DNA of 25,147 bases from positions 1-25,147 of IMG/VR virus record IMGVR_UViG_3300029448_000400. One strand, given 5' to 3'. Shown here piece after piece: positions 1,764 to 24,497 of this stretch (positions are counted from its first letter, which is position 1; the number at the start of each line of letters is the position of its first letter). Source of the stretch: a virus. The notes beneath the pieces were generated by a model. That model did no database searches. It was given only the letters and a program-made list of their open reading frames with translations, and was not told the DNA's origin. Both the position numbers and the translations under genes were made by a program.

Positions 1764-2909
1764 ATGGCTTTTGGAATTGGCGGTAAATTAAAAGATTTTT
1801 TAGGCAGTGCAGCTAATAAAGTAGCTGACAAAATTGTTCCTAAAGAGTTGGCACCTTTTTTACCATTACTTGCTCCAGTATTCATGGGCCCACAAGCGGG
1901 GATCATGTCGCGTTATTTAATGCCACAATTATTAACAGCTTTATCATCAGGTAAAACTGCTGGTGATATTAGTGGTACTGGTCAAGTTTTAACTGGACTT
2001 GGTAGTTTGTTATCTGATCCACGTAGACTAGCTTTATCACAACAAACTGATCCGGTCGCTGCAACAGCAGGAAATAATCAAAGTCCATTTATAGAATCTA
2101 AAGAACAACTTGTTCCAAGAGAAGATTTTATAGGTATTCCGTCTGATGGAGGAATGGGCGTACCTCAACTTGAACTTAAAGATGTAAATATTCCAAGAAT
2201 GCCTAATCCAGATTATATTGCACCAACTGCTGCTATACCTTCACAACCTATATATGATATTTCACAAATAGATAATCCAACTTTGATAGACTATCTTAAA
2301 ACCGGTGTCAACGAAGCACAAGATTTCATGCAAGGTTTAAATACAGCTAATACTTATCCTGGCGGACCAGAAGTTGTTGATGCTGCCGGTAATGCAGTGT
2401 TAGTTAGAGATGCCGGGTTTATGCAAAACTTACCACGACGTGCAGTTATGCAAGGCATACAAAGTATTGGACCAGCATCAACTGCTATTGATAAATATAA
2501 AGCTGATCAAGATGCCGAAGCAGCTAGATTAGCAGAAGAGCAAGAAGCTTATAATAATGCAGTTGCTGAATTAGGTAGATACTATAGTTCTTTAGCTGAC
2601 CCTGATGAAAGATTTGGATCCTACTATAATCAAGGTGGCCGTGTAAATAAAAACGTGGGCGGCATCATGAACAACATGGGTAGCATTCCACAAACACTTA
2701 ATATACCAGAAGGCATGCAACTAGATGGTCGCGGTGGTGGTTTTATCCCAATGGGCGCACAAGAAAAAAAAGATGATGTGCCAGCGATGCTAGCAAAAAA
2801 TGAATTTGTCATGACGTCAGATGCAGTTAGAGCCGCGGGTGGTGGTAGTATTGAAAAAGGGGCACAACGCATGTATGACATGATGAACCAATTGGAAGCA
2901 CAAGTATAA
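1764..2909 (+). CDS. Virion protein, probable internal/ejection protein (381 aa)
   Basis: The first of a run of large Ala/Gln/Gly-rich virion proteins that sit where T7-like phages place internal (ejection) proteins. The N-terminus (MAFGIGGKLKDFLGSAAN) is followed by a hydrophobic stretch at about residues 29-60. The middle is Pro-rich and probably loosely folded. A helical segment at about 247-280 (YKADQDAEAARLAEEQEA) precedes the peptide GGRVNKNVGG (residues 291-300). The last 45 residues, around DDVPAMLAKNEFVMTSDAVR and KGAQRMYDMMNQ, form a recognisable C-terminal module that recurs in marine phage virion proteins; its function is unknown. The stop overlaps the next ATG. The ejection role is inferred from position and composition. 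Confidence 0.65.
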   Translation: MAFGIGGKLKDFLGSAANKVADKIVPKELAPFLPLLAPVFMGPQAGIMSRYLMPQLLTALSSGKTAGDISGTGQVLTGLGSLLSDPRRLALSQQTDPVAATAGNNQSPFIESKEQLVPREDFIGIPSDGGMGVPQLELKDVNIPRMPNPDYIAPTAAIPSQPIYDISQIDNPTLIDYLKTGVNEAQDFMQGLNTANTYPGGPEVVDAAGNAVLVRDAGFMQNLPRRAVMQGIQSIGPASTAIDKYKADQDAEAARLAEEQEAYNNAVAELGRYYSSLADPDERFGSYYNQGGRVNKNVGGIMNNMGSIPQTLNIPEGMQLDGRGGGFIPMGAQEKKDDVPAMLAKNEFVMTSDAVRAAGGGSIEKGAQRMYDMMNQLEAQV

Positions 2910-4537
2910 TGAACGAAAAATTAATAGATTTATTAGTACAAAGCGGCATGTCACCATTAGATGCAATGATGAAAGCACGTGAAGTATCACAAGATCCAAC
3001 TTTACTAGATGAATTAATGAACATGGAGACGTTATCTCAATCACAGATTTATCAAGAAGGTGGTCGTGTTAAAATGCAACAAGGTGGTCAAACCAATACC
3101 GATCCAACTTATCAAGAAATAGTAGATAAGATTATGGAATCGTACCCAGAGGGTACAGAAATGGATATTGAAAGAAGGGAGCCACAGCTAGAAGCATTAA
3201 TTCAAGCGTTTGGTCCACAACTAGCTGACGCTTTAGGCACACCATTAAAACCAACTGAAGGTGGTGTAAATGTTTCTGGTCAAGCGTATGATGCTTATGC
3301 ACCAGAATCTGCTGGTCAAAACCAATTACAACAAGCAGCTATAAATGCAGCGTTAGCGCAAGCTGGTTTTGGTGAAGGTACATTTGGAGAAGATGGTGGT
3401 CTTACTGCTATTGGTGCAAGATTATCCGGCGATGCAGGGTTAGGTGGTTTTCAACCGTTTTTAAATCAAGCCGCAGCAGATGCAAAAGCAGCAGGCGCAG
3501 CAGCAACAGCGGGTCAAGACGCGGGGATCGCGGGTATTAACGAAGCACAAAGATTACAAGGTTTAATGGCAGATTCTGCAATAGCAGGTCAAGGTGCAGG
3601 AGCACAGGCTTTAGCCAATGCACAAGCACAAGCAAATTTAATGTCACAAGCAGGTATATTGGGTCAAGGAGCGGGCGACGCGGATTTAGCAGCAGCTAGA
3701 GGCTTTACCGGACCAGATGCTTTTCAACAATTTATGTCACCATATCAACAAGAAGTTATTGACACTACTATGGCTGATTACAAAGCAGAATTACAAAGAC
3801 AACAAGCTCAACTAGGTCTTGGTGCGGGTAGCGCATTTGGCGGTAGTCGTTTTGGTGTGGCACAAGGTGAGCTTGGTGCACAAGGTGCACAAGGTTTAGC
3901 TAGAACTTTAGCTGGTTTACGACAGCAAGGCTTTACACAAGCGCAGCAATTAGCGGCGCAAGCAGCGCAACAACGTATGGCTGCAGGTCAACAAGCAATG
4001 CAACAAGCGGGACAAAATGTTGGCTTATTAGGACAAGGTTTATCAGGTCAACAAAGTCAAGCGCAAAATTTACAACAACAAGCTGCGCAAAACTTAGGTT
4101 TGTTAGGACAACCAGCACAAACAGCGTTAGCTGGTTCACAAGCAGCACAACAACAAGCCTTACAAAACGTCGGGTTACTAGGGCAGACCGGACAAATGCA
4201 AACTGGACTAGCATCCTTACAACCACAACTAGCAGCACAAAATATTGGCCAGCTAGGACAACTAGGTTCACAACAACAACAACAAGCACAAGCAAGATTA
4301 GACACAACAGCGCAAGCTAACAAGATGATAGCTTTTGAGCCTTACGATAGAATGGGCTTCTTTGGACAACAAGTTGCTGGTATTGGTGGTGGCTATCCAG
4401 GACAAACTACTTTCTCAACTCAACAAGCACAAGCTGGTATTAATCCGATGATGCAATTATTTGGTATAGGTGCAACTGCACTAGGTGGTATTGGTAATTT
4501 AGCTAGCACATTTGGATACGGCAACCCAACAAGGTAA
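2909..4537 (+). CDS. Ala/Gln-rich virion protein with 25-residue repeats (542 aa)
   Basis: The N-terminus (NEKLIDLLVQSGMSPLDAM) leads to the peptide GGRVKMQQGG at residues 51-60. The centre is built of Ala/Gln/Gly repeats. A xGQxAG block recurs at 201-206, 226-231 and 251-256. A second array has QN[VLI]GLLGQ-type blocks at 369-376, 394-401, 419-426 and 444-451. Both arrays have an exact period of 25 residues. Between them lies a less repetitive segment (MSPYQQEVIDTTMADYKAEL, then AGSAFGGSRFGVAQGELG). The C-terminus has a EPYDRMGFFGQQ segment and a Gly-rich end. The make-up suits a long helical internal virion or ejection-tube component; this is inference. The TAATG coupling to the gene before it supports joint expression. 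Confidence 0.65.
   Translation: MNEKLIDLLVQSGMSPLDAMMKAREVSQDPTLLDELMNMETLSQSQIYQEGGRVKMQQGGQTNTDPTYQEIVDKIMESYPEGTEMDIERREPQLEALIQAFGPQLADALGTPLKPTEGGVNVSGQAYDAYAPESAGQNQLQQAAINAALAQAGFGEGTFGEDGGLTAIGARLSGDAGLGGFQPFLNQAAADAKAAGAAATAGQDAGIAGINEAQRLQGLMADSAIAGQGAGAQALANAQAQANLMSQAGILGQGAGDADLAAARGFTGPDAFQQFMSPYQQEVIDTTMADYKAELQRQQAQLGLGAGSAFGGSRFGVAQGELGAQGAQGLARTLAGLRQQGFTQAQQLAAQAAQQRMAAGQQAMQQAGQNVGLLGQGLSGQQSQAQNLQQQAAQNLGLLGQPAQTALAGSQAAQQQALQNVGLLGQTGQMQTGLASLQPQLAAQNIGQLGQLGSQQQQQAQARLDTTAQANKMIAFEPYDRMGFFGQQVAGIGGGYPGQTTFSTQQAQAGINPMMQLFGIGATALGGIGNLASTFGYGNPTR
3962..4261 (+). repeat. Four in-frame 75-bp (25-residue) degenerate repeats
   Basis: Residues 352-376, 377-401, 402-426 and 427-451 of the 542-aa virion protein each end in QN[VLI]G[LQ]LGQ. 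The spacing is exactly 25 residues with no indels, while the DNA is diverged. A related array (xGQxAG at 201, 226 and 251) shows the same period. Confidence 0.85.
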
Positions 4538-4541
4538 AAAT

Positions 4542-5837
4542 ATGGCATACACATTACAAAGAAAAATGTTTAAACTTGGCGGCAGCGTAGCACACGGTGG
4601 TGGCATTACCGCTAACTTAAAAAACCCAAACAGAACATCAATGAAAAAAGGTGGTAAAGTTGCACCAATTGGTCAAGTGGGTAAAGGTCCATTATATATG
4701 AAAGGCCCTGATGGTAAAATGAGAGAGATGCAAAATCCCTTAGCTTTAATTCTTGGAGGCGCTGGGTTGTTATCACGAGGAATACCTTTAGCAACTCGAG
4801 CGGCTAAATTTTTAATGCCACGAGGTTCACAAGCTTTAATTCAAGCAGGTAGAAAACGTTCATTAGATCCTATTAAAAATTATTTAAATTTTGGACAAGC
4901 TAGCGGAGCTAGTGCGGCACAAAAAGCAGCTGCTATAAAAAAAGCTATGGAGACAGGACGGGCTGCAACAATGAAATCAGGCATACCTGTGAAACTTGGT
5001 CGAGGTGTATTTGGTTTAGGTACAGGAGCAGCAGGATTAGCTGGTTTAGGTGTTGGTTTACCTTCAGCTTTACTATCAACAGAAGGACCTGACGATACAA
5101 ATTTTGAAAAAATTACAAGAGCAATAGGTAGAACAGGTGTGGATTTAAGTGGTCCTGGTCTTGCAACTAATCTAGTACAACGACTTAGAGGCACAGCAAC
5201 AGAACCTAAAGAAACTAGTTTATATAATTTAATTTCTGGAAAAGAAACTGGTCCTGCAGAAGTGCCTAAATCAGAAACACGTAAAGTTGCAACTAAACAA
5301 GTTTCTGAAATGGAAAAATTAAAAAACCAAGCACTAGAGAGAAAAGAGTTATATGAATCATTAATGTATGAGCCAGATAAATTAGCGCTAGCTAGTAACG
5401 CTTTACTATCTGCAGGAACCTCTGCGCTACGTGGTGATGAATTAGCTGATGTTGTAGAAGCTGGCTTTAGCCCAATTAACACTGAAGCTGCAAGACGTAG
5501 AGAGATTGAAAGTGCTTCATCACAACAAGCTATAACTGATATACTAAATGATAAAGCGACAAGACAAGCAATATTAGCTGAAGTTGCTAAGAGTGGTGAC
5601 ACTAGAGCTATTGCTAGAGTTAAAAAATTCTTTGATGCTTCTGATCAAGGCGTTGATGATGCATTACCGATGAATGCTAAAGGTGCAATGGATACAACAC
5701 AAATGCGTGCCGGCACTATTTACGCTGACGTTGAAAATGCCACTGGTAAATTGTTTGTAGCGGTCAACGAATCGGGCAGCGAGATAAAACAATTTGATAC
5801 AATAGAGGAAGCTATCGAACACTCACAGAAACCGTAG
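4542..5837 (+). CDS. Virion protein with GG[SK]V repeats, probable ejection protein (431 aa)
   Basis: I choose the ATG at 4542, five bases after the upstream stop, with AAGGT just upstream; the TTG at 4512 inside the upstream gene would add only ten residues and lacks support. The N-terminal 50 residues hold two glycine motifs, KLGGSVAHGGG and KKGGKVAPIG. Two hydrophobic stretches follow at about residues 69-92 (LILGGAGLL ...) and 159-179 (LGTGAAGLAGLGVGL), which could insert into or cross a membrane. Residues about 255-380 are charged and helical. The C-terminus (IYADVENATGKLFVAV ... EEAIEHSQ) looks like a small beta-beta-alpha unit. Membrane segments between two other internal virion proteins fit a role in DNA ejection. 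No family name recognised. Confidence 0.65.
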   Translation: MAYTLQRKMFKLGGSVAHGGGITANLKNPNRTSMKKGGKVAPIGQVGKGPLYMKGPDGKMREMQNPLALILGGAGLLSRGIPLATRAAKFLMPRGSQALIQAGRKRSLDPIKNYLNFGQASGASAAQKAAAIKKAMETGRAATMKSGIPVKLGRGVFGLGTGAAGLAGLGVGLPSALLSTEGPDDTNFEKITRAIGRTGVDLSGPGLATNLVQRLRGTATEPKETSLYNLISGKETGPAEVPKSETRKVATKQVSEMEKLKNQALERKELYESLMYEPDKLALASNALLSAGTSALRGDELADVVEAGFSPINTEAARRREIESASSQQAITDILNDKATRQAILAEVAKSGDTRAIARVKKFFDASDQGVDDALPMNAKGAMDTTQMRAGTIYADVENATGKLFVAVNESGSEIKQFDTIEEAIEHSQKP

Positions 5838-5845
5838 GAGATAGT

Positions 5846-8800
5846 ATGGTTGCGTTAACACTTGTAAAACCTTTAGTTCCAAAAATTTATTCTTTAGCTA
5901 AAAAAGCAGGAACAGCTTTAAAAAAATATACTCCAAATCAGTACAAAAATACTGGCACTGAGGCGTATAAACATAGAAAACAAACCTTAGATAGTTTTTA
6001 TAATGATTTTAAAAACATACAGGGTAGAGAACCAAATCGTTCTGAATATACTTCTTTGTTAAAATTTGGTGATGTTAGAGGATTAAGTGCAAACGAAACT
6101 AGATTACAAAATCCTGGAATGAAATTTTTTAAAAACAGAACACCCGAACAATTATCACTAAAAAGTCAAGAACGAAAAAAATTTTTTGATGCAAACAGAA
6201 AACAAAGAAAATATACTGAACCAACTTTATTTACTGAAAGTTTAACACCAGGTAAAAAAGCAAAACTTAAAGGTGTTCTTTTTGCTAATGACAAACAACA
6301 ACAAAAGTTTGATAAACTTTTAGATGAGTTTTATGAATCACCGTCAGGACAAGCACCTAAAAGAGTATTAGATAAATTTATACCTTTTTTTAAAAAAGGC
6401 ACGGATCCTGAATATATTTCAAGAGTTAGAACTACTAGGGGAAGACAATTAAACAAAACATTTAAACCTATGAATAAAAGAACCACAGCTTTAAGTACAA
6501 GCGTTCCTTCTTCAATGTTAAAATATAAAAAAATGGCATCTAGTATGGACGAACAATTAGACGCTGCGCATTTACAAGGTAAAAATGCTGCTCTGTCAAA
6601 ATACGCCGTAGCAAAACAAGATCTTCCAGAAATGATGCCGAAATACACCGACGCTACGTTTTTTTCTAATAGGGGTATAAAATTAAAACCTAGCTATTTA
6701 ACAACTAAAGAAAGAAATCAAAAAATACACGTTAGACAAGAAAAAGATTTATTAGAATTATTAGATAATAGAAATGGTTTTTTAGAGGGGGCAACTAATG
6801 CTAAAACTAACGCGGATAAAAAATTATTTTTTGATGGATTAAAAAGAAATCAAAAATTAATTGATGAATTAAATGATGAAATGATATCCTACAGAAATTT
6901 AAGTGTCATTAAAGATCCTATAACAGGTAATATTAAATATTATGGAAAAGAACCAGAATCAGTTAGTAAAATTTTAAATTTAAAGAAAAATATTTCTGGT
7001 ACTACTCCGGACATACCCATAGGTGTTAAAGATGGTGGTCGTATAAAATTAAAAGACGGTGGCAATGTAGAGAAAGCTAATGTTGATGATGTGTTTAGAC
7101 AGTATTTAAACTTAGGTGGTATTGCCGGCGATAAGTCTAGTAATCTTGGTAGCACTAGAGTAAGTAATTTTGGTGGCATTCAACAACGTAGCAACGATAA
7201 GGTAGGTACTATACAAAGTTTATTATCTGGTATTGCTGCTGGTTTAATTGACATACCTAAAGGTGCCTTTACTCTTGGCGCATCACTAATGGATTTAGGT
7301 ATGGGCACTAACAATGCAGCTAAAGTAGAGAGTTATTTTGATGACCTAACTACTTTTGATGAAAAAGCTGAAGCTACCACTGCTGGTAGTTTAGCAAGAA
7401 TATTTACTAATTTAGGTATTCCAGGATCACAAGGTTGGAAGTTAGGTAGTGCGCTAGCAAAGAGAGCAGTAACTTCTAAACGTGCTGGTAATTATTTTAA
7501 AATATCTCGACCAGATATGGAAGGCCGAATGCAAGAAGCGTTGACCACGGGTGGTAAACTATTGACCACAGCCGGTGGCGCTGCAGGTATTGGTGTTGCT
7601 GATGCTATCTTTGTCGGTGATCCAGAATCTGTCGGCACATTGGGTGATGCATTTAGTGTTGGACCTACACAATTAGATCCTAATAGTGACACGGACCCAT
7701 CAAGAGAAATACTAAACAGGATAAAATTTGGATTAGATAGTTCACTAATGTTAGGTGTAGTGGCTGGCACTGGCTCTGCTATTGGTAAAGTTATTGCTAG
7801 AAACAAAGGCCTAGAGTCTAATAACAAAGTTCTTGATAAATTATTTTCTAAACTTAGACCACGTGGTGACAAGCCGCAAGAATTTTTTAATTTAGAACGA
7901 CAACAAATAGGTATTAGACAAGCAGATTTAAATCGGGCTACTGAGTTACAACGAAACGTGGATCGTCATATTGATAAAATATTTCCGTTTGTAAAAGGTG
8001 CATTAAACAGAACTAAAACTACTGACCGTGCTGATCTTATGAAACAATTAAACGAAACATTATTGTCCGGTGAATTAATTGATGATGTTGCTGGTGGCCT
8101 TAAATTTACACCAATAGATGAAACTAGTCGTGCTGCGTCTATAAAAAAATTAAAATCTTTAGGTGCCGGTAAAAAAGAAATAGATGGTATTTTTGATGCC
8201 TTTGAAGACATGCGTACTGAATGGGGTGAGATGTTTGGTTATTTAGGTAAAAAAATGTCAGCGGATGACCTAGCTTCTTTTAAAACAGGTTTTGGTAAAA
8301 AGTTTGGTGACTATCTAGGATCAACCTACGAAGTATTTAAAAACAAATCTTTAATACCAATGTTTAATTTTGCACCTGGCCGAGAGGCTATTAAAAAAGG
8401 CATGAATATGTTTAAAGAATCTGCAGAAAAAGCAGGTAAAAAAATAACAGACGAACAAGCAGAGTATTATGTAAACCAGGTAGTAGAATCAGCAAGACCA
8501 CCACAAAGATTATCTACTGCAGCAGAACAAAACGCAGGAGTTTATTTTAACGCACCAGATTTTTTTGGTAATAAAACTACATTACATGAATTAGATTTTA
8601 AAGGTAAAGGTTTAGCTATAAATGATTTAAAGCCAGGATCTAAACAAGTTGTAGAAGAAATACTTGGTAAGGTAGATGATCCTATGTCAACCATGTTAGC
8701 TGGTACTGGTAAATTATCTTTATTAACTAGACGTAATCAATTTTTTGATAAGCTATTAGATGAGTCTAATTTAGCAAGGGAAATAGATCCTAAGACTGGT

Positions 8801-11017
8801 AATAAAGTTTATCCAGAAAAAAAACAAATGTTTTTTGATGACGAAGCTGCTGCTGTAGAAGCCTTGGGCAACGGTAATGTTAAACTAGTTGGGTTTGATC
8901 CAGGCGGTAAAGTACAAATAGGTAACGCTGCACACAGATTAAACGGTATGTTTGCTCATAAAGGTATTGCCGATGCACTAGCAGAAACTAGCACCAATAT
9001 ACTAGGTGATGGTATGCTATCTAAACTATATCAAAATTTAATTTTATACCCTAAAGCTACTTCACAGCTTGCAAAAACTGTGCTTAGTCCTATTACTCAC
9101 GTGCGTAACGTTGTTAGCGCTGGAGCCTTTGCTACCGCTAATGGTATTTTCTTTCCGGTAGAAGGTAAGGCTATGAAAGAAGCTTATAAGATGTTGCAGT
9201 TTGGTGCGCGTGGTGATGCTGAGGCTAATGCCATGTATCAAAAATTATTAAAACTTGGTGTGGTTAATACTAATGTGCGTCTTGGTGATTTACAAAGATT
9301 ATTAACCGACGTTAAGTTTGGCGAGGGCACTAGTAATTTAACCGCGCTACGTGGGTTAACAAAAAAATTATCTAAACTTAAAAAAGGTGCTGAAGATTTA
9401 TATACAGCTGAGGATGACTTTTGGAAAATTACATCATGGGCCGTGGAACGTAACAGATATGACAAAGCTTTTCGAAAAGCTGGGCTAACAGACTTAAACG
9501 CTTACGCAAAAACTAAAGGGTTTGACAAGTATGATGATTTCTTAGATGAGACTGCAGCTGATATAGTGCGTAACAACATACCTAACTACGACTATGTAAA
9601 TGAATTTGTAAAAGGATTAAGAAAATTACCTATAGGTAATTTTGTATCTTTTCCAGCAGAAATTATGCGTACTAGCGCTAACATTTTATCACGTGGGTTT
9701 AGAGAAATAGCAGAAGAAATAACTTTACCTGATGGTAGAAAAGTTAAACCGTTTTCAAGCATTGGTTATAAAAGATTAATTGGTTTTGGTGCAACAACAG
9801 TAGCAGTGCCGGCAGCTGTAACTGAAACATTTAAAATGGCATACGATGTTGGTGAAGATGAAATGGATGCTTTAAGAAGATTTGTACCTGATTGGTCTAA
9901 AAACTCAACACTAGTTCCAATACGAGATAAAGAAACTGGTAACTTAAAATATGTAGACTTTTCTCATGCTAATGCATACGACACTATGCTTAGACCTTTC
10001 ACTACAATAATGAATAATGTTAGAGACGGTAACAAAGACGAGTCGCCGGTTATAGAAAGCATGATGCGTGGTATGTTTGAAGCCACTAAAGAACTTGGTT
10101 CTCCTTTTATTAGTGAATCAATTTGGACGCAGGCAGCAACAGATATTATTGTAAGGGGCGGGCGTACTAGAACTGGACAAAGATTATACACGGACCAAAC
10201 ACCAGTTGGAGAAAAAGTACAAAAAATAGTAGGACACTTAGTTGAAGCACAATTACCAGGATCAATAGAATCATTGAAAAGAATAGATTTAGCAATAGAA
10301 CCAGTTGACATAATACAAAGAGGTAAGTTTGATAAATATGGTAAGACTTATGAACTAGGAGATGAACTAGCAGGCCTTGTTGGTTTGCGTGCAGTAGAAG
10401 TTAATCCGGTCAATGCAATGAAATTTAAAATCGCTGATTTTAGAACGGGAATCAACAATGCTCGTCGTGAGTTTACACAACCCTTACTTAGAGGTGGACC
10501 AGTAACACCAGAACAAATTATAGATCGTTATCAAATTGCTAACGAACAAACTTACAAAGTACAACAAAACATGTTGAAAGATTATTATGCCGCTAGAGTT
10601 TTAGGCACTGGTGAAAATACTTTAGATAGAGAGTTTAAAGATAGGGTATCTAATATCCAATTAAATGCTATTAAGACTGGTAGGTTTAGACCTTTCATAC
10701 CATCAGAAAACATAGTTAATTCTTTTGCAGAGAATGCTAGAGCTATTGGTCAACGTAGCCCGTACTTAGCAGCACAAAGAGAGATAGAAAGATTGTTAAA
10801 AGAATACAACTCATTACCATTAACATTGGAACGATTCCCAATATCAATTAATCCATTTAGCGTCGCACCAGAAGTGCCTACCGCAGGTATGAATTTAACT
10901 GGTGGTACCTTGCCACAACTTAATACACCGTTGCAAGGAACTACTATTGGTGGTATTAGTAATATTGGTAATACTCTAGCTAAAATAGAACAAGTAGATA
11001 AGGTATTTGATTTATAA
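5846..11017 (+). CDS. Giant internal virion / ejection protein (1723 aa)
   Basis: TAGGAG lies five bases before the ATG. At 1723 residues it is the longest gene in the window and the last virion gene before lysis, the position of the largest ejection protein in T7-like phages (T7 gp16 is about 1300 aa). The N-terminal 390 residues are strongly basic. GGRIKLKDGG occurs at 397-406. Hydrophobic stretches appear at about 456-478, 573-590, 629-649, 1079-1100 and 1311-1328. A segment from about 1190 (FWKITSWAVERNRYDKAF) through FVSFPAEIMRTSANIL near 1266 resembles regions of large polyvalent phage/mobile-element proteins. I see no lytic transglycosylase signature, so wall digestion must come from elsewhere if needed. 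Membrane passage and DNA conduit roles are inferred. Confidence 0.7.
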   Translation: MVALTLVKPLVPKIYSLAKKAGTALKKYTPNQYKNTGTEAYKHRKQTLDSFYNDFKNIQGREPNRSEYTSLLKFGDVRGLSANETRLQNPGMKFFKNRTPEQLSLKSQERKKFFDANRKQRKYTEPTLFTESLTPGKKAKLKGVLFANDKQQQKFDKLLDEFYESPSGQAPKRVLDKFIPFFKKGTDPEYISRVRTTRGRQLNKTFKPMNKRTTALSTSVPSSMLKYKKMASSMDEQLDAAHLQGKNAALSKYAVAKQDLPEMMPKYTDATFFSNRGIKLKPSYLTTKERNQKIHVRQEKDLLELLDNRNGFLEGATNAKTNADKKLFFDGLKRNQKLIDELNDEMISYRNLSVIKDPITGNIKYYGKEPESVSKILNLKKNISGTTPDIPIGVKDGGRIKLKDGGNVEKANVDDVFRQYLNLGGIAGDKSSNLGSTRVSNFGGIQQRSNDKVGTIQSLLSGIAAGLIDIPKGAFTLGASLMDLGMGTNNAAKVESYFDDLTTFDEKAEATTAGSLARIFTNLGIPGSQGWKLGSALAKRAVTSKRAGNYFKISRPDMEGRMQEALTTGGKLLTTAGGAAGIGVADAIFVGDPESVGTLGDAFSVGPTQLDPNSDTDPSREILNRIKFGLDSSLMLGVVAGTGSAIGKVIARNKGLESNNKVLDKLFSKLRPRGDKPQEFFNLERQQIGIRQADLNRATELQRNVDRHIDKIFPFVKGALNRTKTTDRADLMKQLNETLLSGELIDDVAGGLKFTPIDETSRAASIKKLKSLGAGKKEIDGIFDAFEDMRTEWGEMFGYLGKKMSADDLASFKTGFGKKFGDYLGSTYEVFKNKSLIPMFNFAPGREAIKKGMNMFKESAEKAGKKITDEQAEYYVNQVVESARPPQRLSTAAEQNAGVYFNAPDFFGNKTTLHELDFKGKGLAINDLKPGSKQVVEEILGKVDDPMSTMLAGTGKLSLLTRRNQFFDKLLDESNLAREIDPKTGNKVYPEKKQMFFDDEAAAVEALGNGNVKLVGFDPGGKVQIGNAAHRLNGMFAHKGIADALAETSTNILGDGMLSKLYQNLILYPKATSQLAKTVLSPITHVRNVVSAGAFATANGIFFPVEGKAMKEAYKMLQFGARGDAEANAMYQKLLKLGVVNTNVRLGDLQRLLTDVKFGEGTSNLTALRGLTKKLSKLKKGAEDLYTAEDDFWKITSWAVERNRYDKAFRKAGLTDLNAYAKTKGFDKYDDFLDETAADIVRNNIPNYDYVNEFVKGLRKLPIGNFVSFPAEIMRTSANILSRGFREIAEEITLPDGRKVKPFSSIGYKRLIGFGATTVAVPAAVTETFKMAYDVGEDEMDALRRFVPDWSKNSTLVPIRDKETGNLKYVDFSHANAYDTMLRPFTTIMNNVRDGNKDESPVIESMMRGMFEATKELGSPFISESIWTQAATDIIVRGGRTRTGQRLYTDQTPVGEKVQKIVGHLVEAQLPGSIESLKRIDLAIEPVDIIQRGKFDKYGKTYELGDELAGLVGLRAVEVNPVNAMKFKIADFRTGINNARREFTQPLLRGGPVTPEQIIDRYQIANEQTYKVQQNMLKDYYAARVLGTGENTLDREFKDRVSNIQLNAIKTGRFRPFIPSENIVNSFAENARAIGQRSPYLAAQREIERLLKEYNSLPLTLERFPISINPFSVAPEVPTAGMNLTGGTLPQLNTPLQGTTIGGISNIGNTLAKIEQVDKVFDL

Positions 11018-21864: not shown

Positions 21865-21993
21865 ATGGCGCATCCAAGTGGTAGAGCAAAAACTGGATCT
21901 AAAAGTAAAATTGCTGCAACGTCAGCGGCACACAAATCACACACAAAAAAATTAAAACGTGGTGGTAAAGTTAAAAAAGGCAAGAAAAAATAA
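21865..21993 (+). CDS. Tiny Lys-rich protein (42 aa)
   Basis: Starts two bases after the previous stop and ends by overlapping the next ATG (TAATG). It begins MAHPSGRAKTGSKSK, contains two His-rich positions (AAHKSHTKK) and ends KRGGKVKKGKKK. There are no acidic residues at all. It is probably unstructured and DNA- or RNA-binding. The ending carries the same GG[KR]-basic motif as the small proteins at 24237-25130 and the larger virion proteins. Confidence 0.6.
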   Translation: MAHPSGRAKTGSKSKIAATSAAHKSHTKKLKRGGKVKKGKKK

Positions 21994-23721: not shown

Positions 23722-24268
23722 AGATATTCTAGACTGGTCTAAAAACTTTATAGAAAAACCTAATGAATATTTAGGTAATGTACCAGTTTGCCCTTATGCA
23801 GCCAAAGCTAGGCAAGATAAAGCCTTAAAAGTATTGGAAGTAACTAAAGACTATAATCTTATAGACAAGATTGTTGAAGGCACAGAACTAATTAAAGAAC
23901 CTAAGACAGATATAGTTATTGTTGCCTGTAGTGATATACACATAACCGTTGAAGAACTAAACATACTTATACACGGCTATAATGTAGTGTTTGTACCACA
24001 AGACATATACCTGATGGCGTCACACCCTTACGACGACGACGAAGATGAACCGGTAGAGTTTTTAGAAACAGATAATTGGGAACCAGACAATGAATTTTTA
24101 ATGGTATTGATACAAAATTTTGATAAACTAGAAAGAGCTAGTGACATGATGCGTAAAAAAGGCTACTATGATAAGTGGCCACTAGATTACTATGATGGCA
24201 CAGTAAATAAACGAAAATCTTATAGGAGATATAGACATGGCAAAGAAGTTTCCAGATCTTACAGGTGA
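23705..24268 (+). CDS. Conserved marine-phage hypothetical protein (187 aa)
   Basis: The N-terminus ITEDILDWSKNFIEKPNEYL leads to VPVCPYAAKARQ with C29-P-Y-A, then a middle with DIVIVACSDIHITVEELN and VVFVPQDIYLMASHPYDDD, a strongly acidic stretch near 108-116, and a C-terminal helix (FDKLERASDMMRKKGYYDKW) before a basic tail. The whole pattern (W-S-x-N-F, pVCPYA, PxDIYLM-x-HPY) is familiar from marine phages and may be an enzyme, with the CPY site as the best candidate for a conserved cysteine centre. Function unknown. Its basic 3' end overlaps the repeat protein by 32 bases in another frame. Confidence 0.7.
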   Translation: MKTITEDILDWSKNFIEKPNEYLGNVPVCPYAAKARQDKALKVLEVTKDYNLIDKIVEGTELIKEPKTDIVIVACSDIHITVEELNILIHGYNVVFVPQDIYLMASHPYDDDEDEPVEFLETDNWEPDNEFLMVLIQNFDKLERASDMMRKKGYYDKWPLDYYDGTVNKRKSYRRYRHGKEVSRSYR

Positions 24269-24497
24269 TGGTAAAGTCACGCAAAAAGACATTCTCAAAG
24301 GAAGAGGTGTTGCACTTAAACGTGGTGGAACTGCTAAAAAGAAAAAAACTAAAAAGAAACGTGCTAAAGCTATGGGCGGCGGCATGATGAAAAAACGTGC
24401 TAAAGCTATGGGCGGCGGCATGATGAAAAAACGTGCTAAAGCTATGGGCGGCGGCATGATGAAAAAAAGAATGAAGCGAGGAGGACGCGCTAAATAA
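24237..24497 (+). CDS. Basic protein with calcium-loop-like start and KKRAKAMGGGMM repeats (86 aa)
   Basis: TAGGAG precedes the ATG within the end of the upstream gene. Residues 7-18 (DLTGDGKVTQKD) fit an EF-hand/dockerin loop with D7, T9, D11, T15 and D18 in the ligand positions. A Lys-rich linker is followed by three perfect 12-residue copies of RAKAMGGGMMKK and a Lys/Arg end KRMKRGGRAK. Three copies are identical at DNA level (36 bp each), so recent expansion is likely. Charge and Gly/Met content suggest a nucleic-acid- or membrane-associated protein, possibly packaged. The start motif is common in marine phages; no function is known to me. Confidence 0.7.
   Translation: MAKKFPDLTGDGKVTQKDILKGRGVALKRGGTAKKKKTKKKRAKAMGGGMMKKRAKAMGGGMMKKRAKAMGGGMMKKRMKRGGRAK
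24360..24467 (+). repeat. Three identical 36-bp tandem repeats
   Basis: Units at 24360-24395, 24396-24431 and 24432-24467 are identical, beginning CGTGCTAAAGC and ending GATGAAAAAA. They are in frame and encode the RAKAMGGGMMKK repeats. There are no spacers between them, so this is not a CRISPR array. Confidence 0.97.

Follow-up and report, generated by a model that had tools for sequence, protein, structure and literature searches.

A ten-residue peptide, GGR[VI]x4GG, recurs in otherwise unrelated proteins of the structural module in a large group of marine tailed phages, where it forms a mobile short linear motif that may serve as a docking or packing tag of internal (ejection-type) proteins; we give this reading a probability of roughly 45%. 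The group includes phages infecting SAR11, among the commonest bacteria of the sea. As judged from sequence, the spacing is exact, the R-V/I-(G)-aromatic core is under selection, the host proteins are unrelated, copy number and position vary, and the motif is confined to the structural module.

The DNA analyzed, referred to here as the window, is the stretch of 25,147 nucleotides of the IMG/VR record IMGVR_UViG_3300029448_000400. ORF calls followed a plain longest-ORF rule. A structural block occupies the left part of the window, with a tail-tube-like gene, small genes and genes 1764, 2909, 4542 and 5846 (Table 1). The first gene matches PHROG 3287 'virion structural protein' (E = 4e-45), and its position suggests the label 'tail tube'. 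From gene order and PHROG matches, genes 1764 to 5846 probably encode internal or ejection proteins. Gene 5846 is followed by a small gene and an M15 peptidase, and the remaining window holds an SNF2-type helicase, a primase, a UvrD-type helicase, a DNA polymerase A and then small genes. The nearest isolates by gene 5846 are phage 023Pt_psg01 and Pelagibacter phage HTVC027P, where the counterpart is gp85 'putative structural protein'. Profiles of the gene 1764, 2909 and 5846 families gave nothing convincing against the PDB, and a fold search with residues 1052-1641 of gene 5846 returned no PDB match at E ≤ 0.001.

Table 1. Features of the window that carry, adjoin or resemble the GGR[VI]x4GG motif.
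Feature	Coordinates	Strand	Remarks
Gene 1764, predicted internal or tail-lumen virion protein	1764..2909	+	weak matches to tape measure PHROGs
Motif copy 1, GGRVNKNVGG	2634..2663	+	residues 291-300, gene 1764
Conserved C-terminal element of gene 1764, GGFIPMG...DDVPAMLAKNEFVMTSDAVRAAGGGSIEKGA	2712..2903	+	from alignment of relatives
Gene 2909, predicted ejection protein	2909..4537	+	weak match to PHROG 4287 'DNA ejection protein' (E = 0.005); ORF cluster of 147 members
Motif copy 2, GGRVKMQQGG	3059..3088	+	residues 51-60, gene 2909
Gene 4542, virion-block protein with separate N-terminal signature	4542..5837	+	
GGSVAHGGG, gene 4542	4578..4604	+	belongs to the R[PK]MFxxGGxV signature
Gene 5846, large virion structural protein closing the internal-protein block	5846..11017	+	PHROG 22602 (E = 5.5e-25)
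Motif copy 3, GGRIKLKDGG	7034..7063	+	residues 397-406, gene 5846, end of N-terminal extension
GGKV in 42-aa basic protein, possible degenerate copy	21961..21972	+	no second GG
86-aa basic repeat protein ending in KRGGRAK	24237..24497	+	N-terminus like HTVC027P gp44 (by eye)

The initial annotation had placed the peptide once in each of three large virion proteins. All three copies were located exactly at the residues given, and a six-frame search found no other match in the window. Composition-preserving shuffles of the 34 window proteins yielded 0.002 expected matches against the three seen, with none of 1000 shuffles reaching three; for the four virion-block proteins the expectation was 0.0012 (0 of 5000 shuffles). 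Since GG dipeptides are not enriched in the window proteins (65 observed vs. 59.9 expected), the excess is not an effect of glycine content. The carriers had been described as otherwise unrelated in sequence, and they do fall into separate BLAST clusters. A looser match, GGKLLTTAGG, is present at residues 569-578 of gene 5846 (7550-7579), and locus L006 has GGRLMATLGG at its apparent counterpart.

The arrangement of residues was examined by counting distinct contexts in the window and the homology-fetched loci. GG[RK][VI]x4GG occurred in 76 contexts, whereas the order-swapped GG[VI][RK]x4GG occurred in none, the patterns with Arg-Val shifted by one or two residues in one each, and the charge-changed GG[DE][VI] and GG[ST][VI] in one each. 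The GG[RK][LA] variant was found in 24 contexts. Spacings of 1, 2 and 6 gave zero contexts, and spacings of 3 and 5 gave eleven and twelve. A pattern scan of IMG/VR without homology found at least 120 stretches, with 119 in frame among the 120 listed; Arg was written as MGA (AGA/CGA), and arginine codons CGT, CGC, CGG and AGG were thus missed. The control scan with R and V swapped gave 43 stretches in the entire collection, 27 of them in frame. Chance similarity between glycine-rich proteins, which the glycine content of the host proteins might have suggested, is refuted by the shuffles, the swapped-pattern scan and the permutation controls, and its probability is negligible.

The distribution among relatives was followed in a first locus set obtained from three homology scans plus the isolates HTVC027P and 023Pt_psg01. 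GG[RK][VI] was observed 131 times in the ORF cluster of the gene 1764 family (13 by shuffling), 52 times in the main gene-4542-type family (6.7) and 13 times in a further family of 53 members (2.7), and it was absent from the replication families w11738, w13454, w14044, w15090 and w16634. The carriers are the gene-1764, gene-2909, gene-4542-type and gene-5846 families, cluster 12 and small-protein families, which form separate BLAST clusters. None of 95 motif-bearing ORFs matched Pfam at a threshold of 1e-3, and PHROG matches were to tape measure (23, 6 and 1), ejection (1), endolysin (2) and unnamed families. The 88 ORFs adjoining motif ORFs include portal, terminase, PHROG 3287 (tail tube) and PHROG 22602, and also auxiliary genes.

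Both nearest isolates follow the same distribution. Among the 87 genes of HTVC027P, GGR[VI] occurs only in gp41 and gp42, which sit between terminase gp40 and portal gp43, in the small basic gp47, and in gp82, the counterpart of gene 1764; the capsid protein of this phage, which can be grown on HTCC1062 (PMC11066056), is gp59. In 023Pt_psg01 it is limited to four genes of the structural half: one follows the terminase, one (110 aa) follows the portal, one corresponds to gene 1764 and carries it twice, and one precedes the gene-5846 counterpart. A single genome can therefore hold both portal-side and tail-side carriers. The related isolate HTVC023P has no GG[RK][VIMA] anywhere in its genome, so the motif is not universal. 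Its gp32 and gp51 (locus L325) both terminate in RGxGAAxRGxxFxGV, which may be another shared tag of this phage devoid of GGR[VI]. Taken across families, the homology-free scan, the isolate genomes and the spacing and permutation controls, the evidence supports a signal confined to virion-module genes, enriched in virion-module families and missing from the replication families.

Conservation was considered at both the peptide and the DNA level. A longer consensus is about [AFY]A[DNK]GGR[VI]G[YF]xxGG, derived from contexts such as YADGGRIGFNSG, YKTGGRVGFKYGGG and KDGGRIGYKHGGLASIL (protein end), and the residues between the fixed positions vary. The gene 1764 proteins of the window and of locus L004 are identical at 367 of 380 aligned residues (97%), with a block of 80 residues inserted immediately upstream of the motif. 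Copy 1 reads GGRVGLNMGG in L004, with altered x residues and GGRV and GG kept; copy 2 is GGRVHLQEGG in L004 and GGRVGMQEGG in L005; copy 3 is identical in L004, GGRVDLELGG in L005, and replaced by overlapping copies, GGRVGMNEGGRVKLAVGG, in L013. The 213 motif instances comprise 101 distinct 15-mers, and since the codons vary in this way, selection acts on the peptide. A DNA-level element was rejected on the same count, with codon use broadly ordinary and varying much as elsewhere in the proteins.

Motif copies vary in number and position among relatives. Absence from close relatives, which would have spoken against a shared function, was seen in part: L004 keeps three copies, L005 keeps two and has none in gene 1764, and HTVC023P lacks the motif. 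In the gene 1764 family, 80 of 150 ORFs have no GG[RK][VI], several showing GGRA, GGLA or GGLM. The motif is therefore dispensable or replaceable. Its co-occurrence in gene-1764 and gene-4542-type proteins across loci showed no association (p = 0.48).

The GG[KRS] variants that the initial annotation counted as further copies mostly belong to a different signature or lie near chance. GGSVAHGGG was rejected as a copy, as it is part of the N-terminal signature R[PK]MFxxGGxVxxxGxGIxSG[LM] of gene 4542 (4560-4640), whose [RK]MFxxGG core is found in 112 of 132 and 11 of 11 members of gene-4542-type families. The GGKV of gene 4542 has no second GG, and the L004 relative has GGSV there. Fixed, unrelated contexts account for GGKI or GGKV in a family of 24 members and in the small gene that follows gene 5846. 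In the 42-aa protein, KRGGKV has a shuffle probability of 0.009; in the 86-aa protein, which contains tandem KKRAKAMGGGMM repeats and is similar at its N-terminus, by eye, to the product of the HTVC027P gene after the portal, the probability of GG[RK][VIA] is 0.17, so its KRGGRAK is compatible with chance. These tiny basic proteins were not accepted as equals of the three copies.

The position of the motif within its proteins was studied on gene 1764, the sole carrier with the motif modelled, from alignments built without rows from named phage records. In the AlphaFold model (53 sequences; mean pLDDT 60), a long helix and the conserved C-terminal element are joined by a low-pLDDT linker that holds the motif (block means 58 and 47). 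Across 55 aligned relatives 21 columns are invariant, most of them within this element, whose DDVPAxLxKNEFVxTxDAVRxAGGG is nearly invariant and like an element of siphophage tape measure proteins. The tape-measure-type DxVPAxLxxxEFV element, matched in tape measure PHROGs, thus accompanies the motif in gene 1764, about 40 residues downstream, but it is a separate feature, as 96 of 123 motif ORFs fail to match its pattern. In relatives, motif copies also close proteins (GGRVGFKNGGLASIL at the end; GGRVPYMMGGLANLVDIYD), and at the C-terminus they exceed expectation modestly (30 vs. 17.1, close relatives included). The N-terminal extension of gene 5846 was looked for as a domain common to portal-side proteins and was not found.

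Tat-like segments of the form RRxFLKLxGGLASIPxxGKF directly follow GGRIGFxxGG inside large portal-side proteins (L207, L223, L232, L241, L253, L261, L270 and others), and similar segments form the extreme N-terminus of separate ORFs in L193 and L196. Matches of these segments to the Pfam TAT_signal family were below the cut-off. GG[RK][VIMA] lies up to 30 residues upstream in 17 of the 23 Tat-like segments (RRxFLK plus a hydrophobic stretch) that the fetched loci contain, an association that is biased because the loci contributing most of these segments had been chosen for the motif.

The main rival to docking is a proteolytic site, in which a phage or host protease would cut GG pairs (GG/R or xxGG/x) at head maturation or after ejection and so free domains of multi-domain virion proteins. 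It holds this place because, in portal-side proteins of related phages, the motif runs straight into Tat-like RRxFLK segments, which in two other phages open ORFs of their own, as if the motif were a junction; the 80-residue module inserted just before the motif also speaks for it, and GG-type cleavage is known in packaged core proteins of adenovirus. We nevertheless consider it unlikely, since the only peptidase among the window proteins scanned is the M15 endolysin-type enzyme and the annotations of HTVC027P and 023Pt_psg01 list no prohead protease. Moreover, cutting the C-terminal copies would shed only about 5-9 residues, and the overlapping tandem copies of L013 would be redundant. The double-Gly-type cleavage offered in the initial annotation did not hold: double-glycine leader peptides share the GG pair, but the window motif is not N-terminal, starting at residues 51, 291 and 397 with no short leader before it, and no Pfam match to a C39 peptidase or ABC exporter was found among the window proteins scanned.

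A flexible linker, that is, a sequence preference for a turn or spacer at module boundaries, spread by recombination between modules and with no dedicated partner, agrees with the low-confidence linker of the one covering model, with the module inserted beside the motif between two 97%-identical proteins and with the mosaic nature of the host proteins. It is improbable in that the fixed R followed by V/I, the preferred G plus aromatic and the sharp spacing far exceed linker composition, and the flanks show no depletion of order-promoting residues (0.29 vs. 0.28). The motif might instead contact nucleic acid or membrane as an RGG-like or small hydrophobic peptide of ejection proteins that coat DNA or enter the envelope. 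Although Arg adjoins the glycines, several small carriers are strongly basic and hydrophobic GGLASI segments follow some copies, this reading is quite improbable: each copy has one Arg, and the variants GGKL, GGRA and GGLA are tolerated. Acidic residues are frequent at the x positions (ADGGRIGFDEGG, QEGG), which makes a simple DNA contact less likely. Among the functions initially offered for a shared signal, docking appears the most plausible, and the confinement of the signal to virion-module genes is well supported.

Known systems give partial parallels for docking. In T7, residues 84-98 of gp7.3 are anchored to the gp12 nozzle in six copies and loop I of gp6.7 lies on the portal barrel in twelve, so that small virion proteins, for the most part unresolved, use short segments to dock on symmetric rings of the head-tail axis (PMC11784390). 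HTVC027P gp41 and gp42 directly precede the portal gene, as T7 gp6.7-gp7.3 precede gp8, and the Lys-rich N-terminus of the gene 1764 family weakly resembles that of gp7.3. Homology between the two is a lead only (hhalign probability of 49% over 21 low-complexity basic residues; PDB hit at E = 0.07), and the T7 loops differ in not being one motif repeated across several proteins. In phage T4, unrelated proteins are brought into the head by a shared peptide, the capsid targeting sequence; this is N-terminal and removed by the prohead protease, while the marine phage copies lie within their proteins or at the C-terminal end. In cargo of family 2 encapsulins, the targeting motifs that have been proposed are disordered and rich in glycine and occur both internally and as C-terminal repeats; cargo peptides are short, often Gly-rich, disordered or terminal, and present in unrelated proteins (PMC8346489). 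They have another sequence, the marine carriers are proteins of the phage structural module, and shell binding could be suggested by analogy.

As a docking or packing tag, the motif would act in proteins encoded at three sites: between terminase and portal, as small basic proteins from portal to capsid, and in the internal-protein block after the tail-tube genes. These carriers, placed in the virion by gene order and PHROG matches, may travel in the head-tail lumen and be ejected at infection. Their flexible parts would bind through the motif to a repeated, symmetric site, candidates being the head-tail axis (portal barrel, core ring, adaptor or nozzle) or the inner face of the HK97-fold shell, and several different proteins could occupy equivalent sites and so be incorporated together. 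A motif profile gave no match in the PDB, and the core strings GGRIGF, GGRIGY, GGRVGF, GGRVGY, GGRVGM and GGRIGL were not found in the open-access literature searched.

A phage-wide peptide code, in which one tag of 10-13 residues in several unrelated proteins directs internal proteins into the procapsid or to the portal or core, is a more tentative possibility. If true, injected proteins in this abundant group of marine phages would have an address system in common, and other lineages, such as that of HTVC023P with its C-terminal peptide in two proteins, may use a different code. The majority of internal virion proteins in marine phages have no family match. With one peptide to search for, candidate proteins that are carried in the particle and injected would be flagged in many phage contigs, and the motif gives a way to test directly how one head takes up several unrelated proteins.
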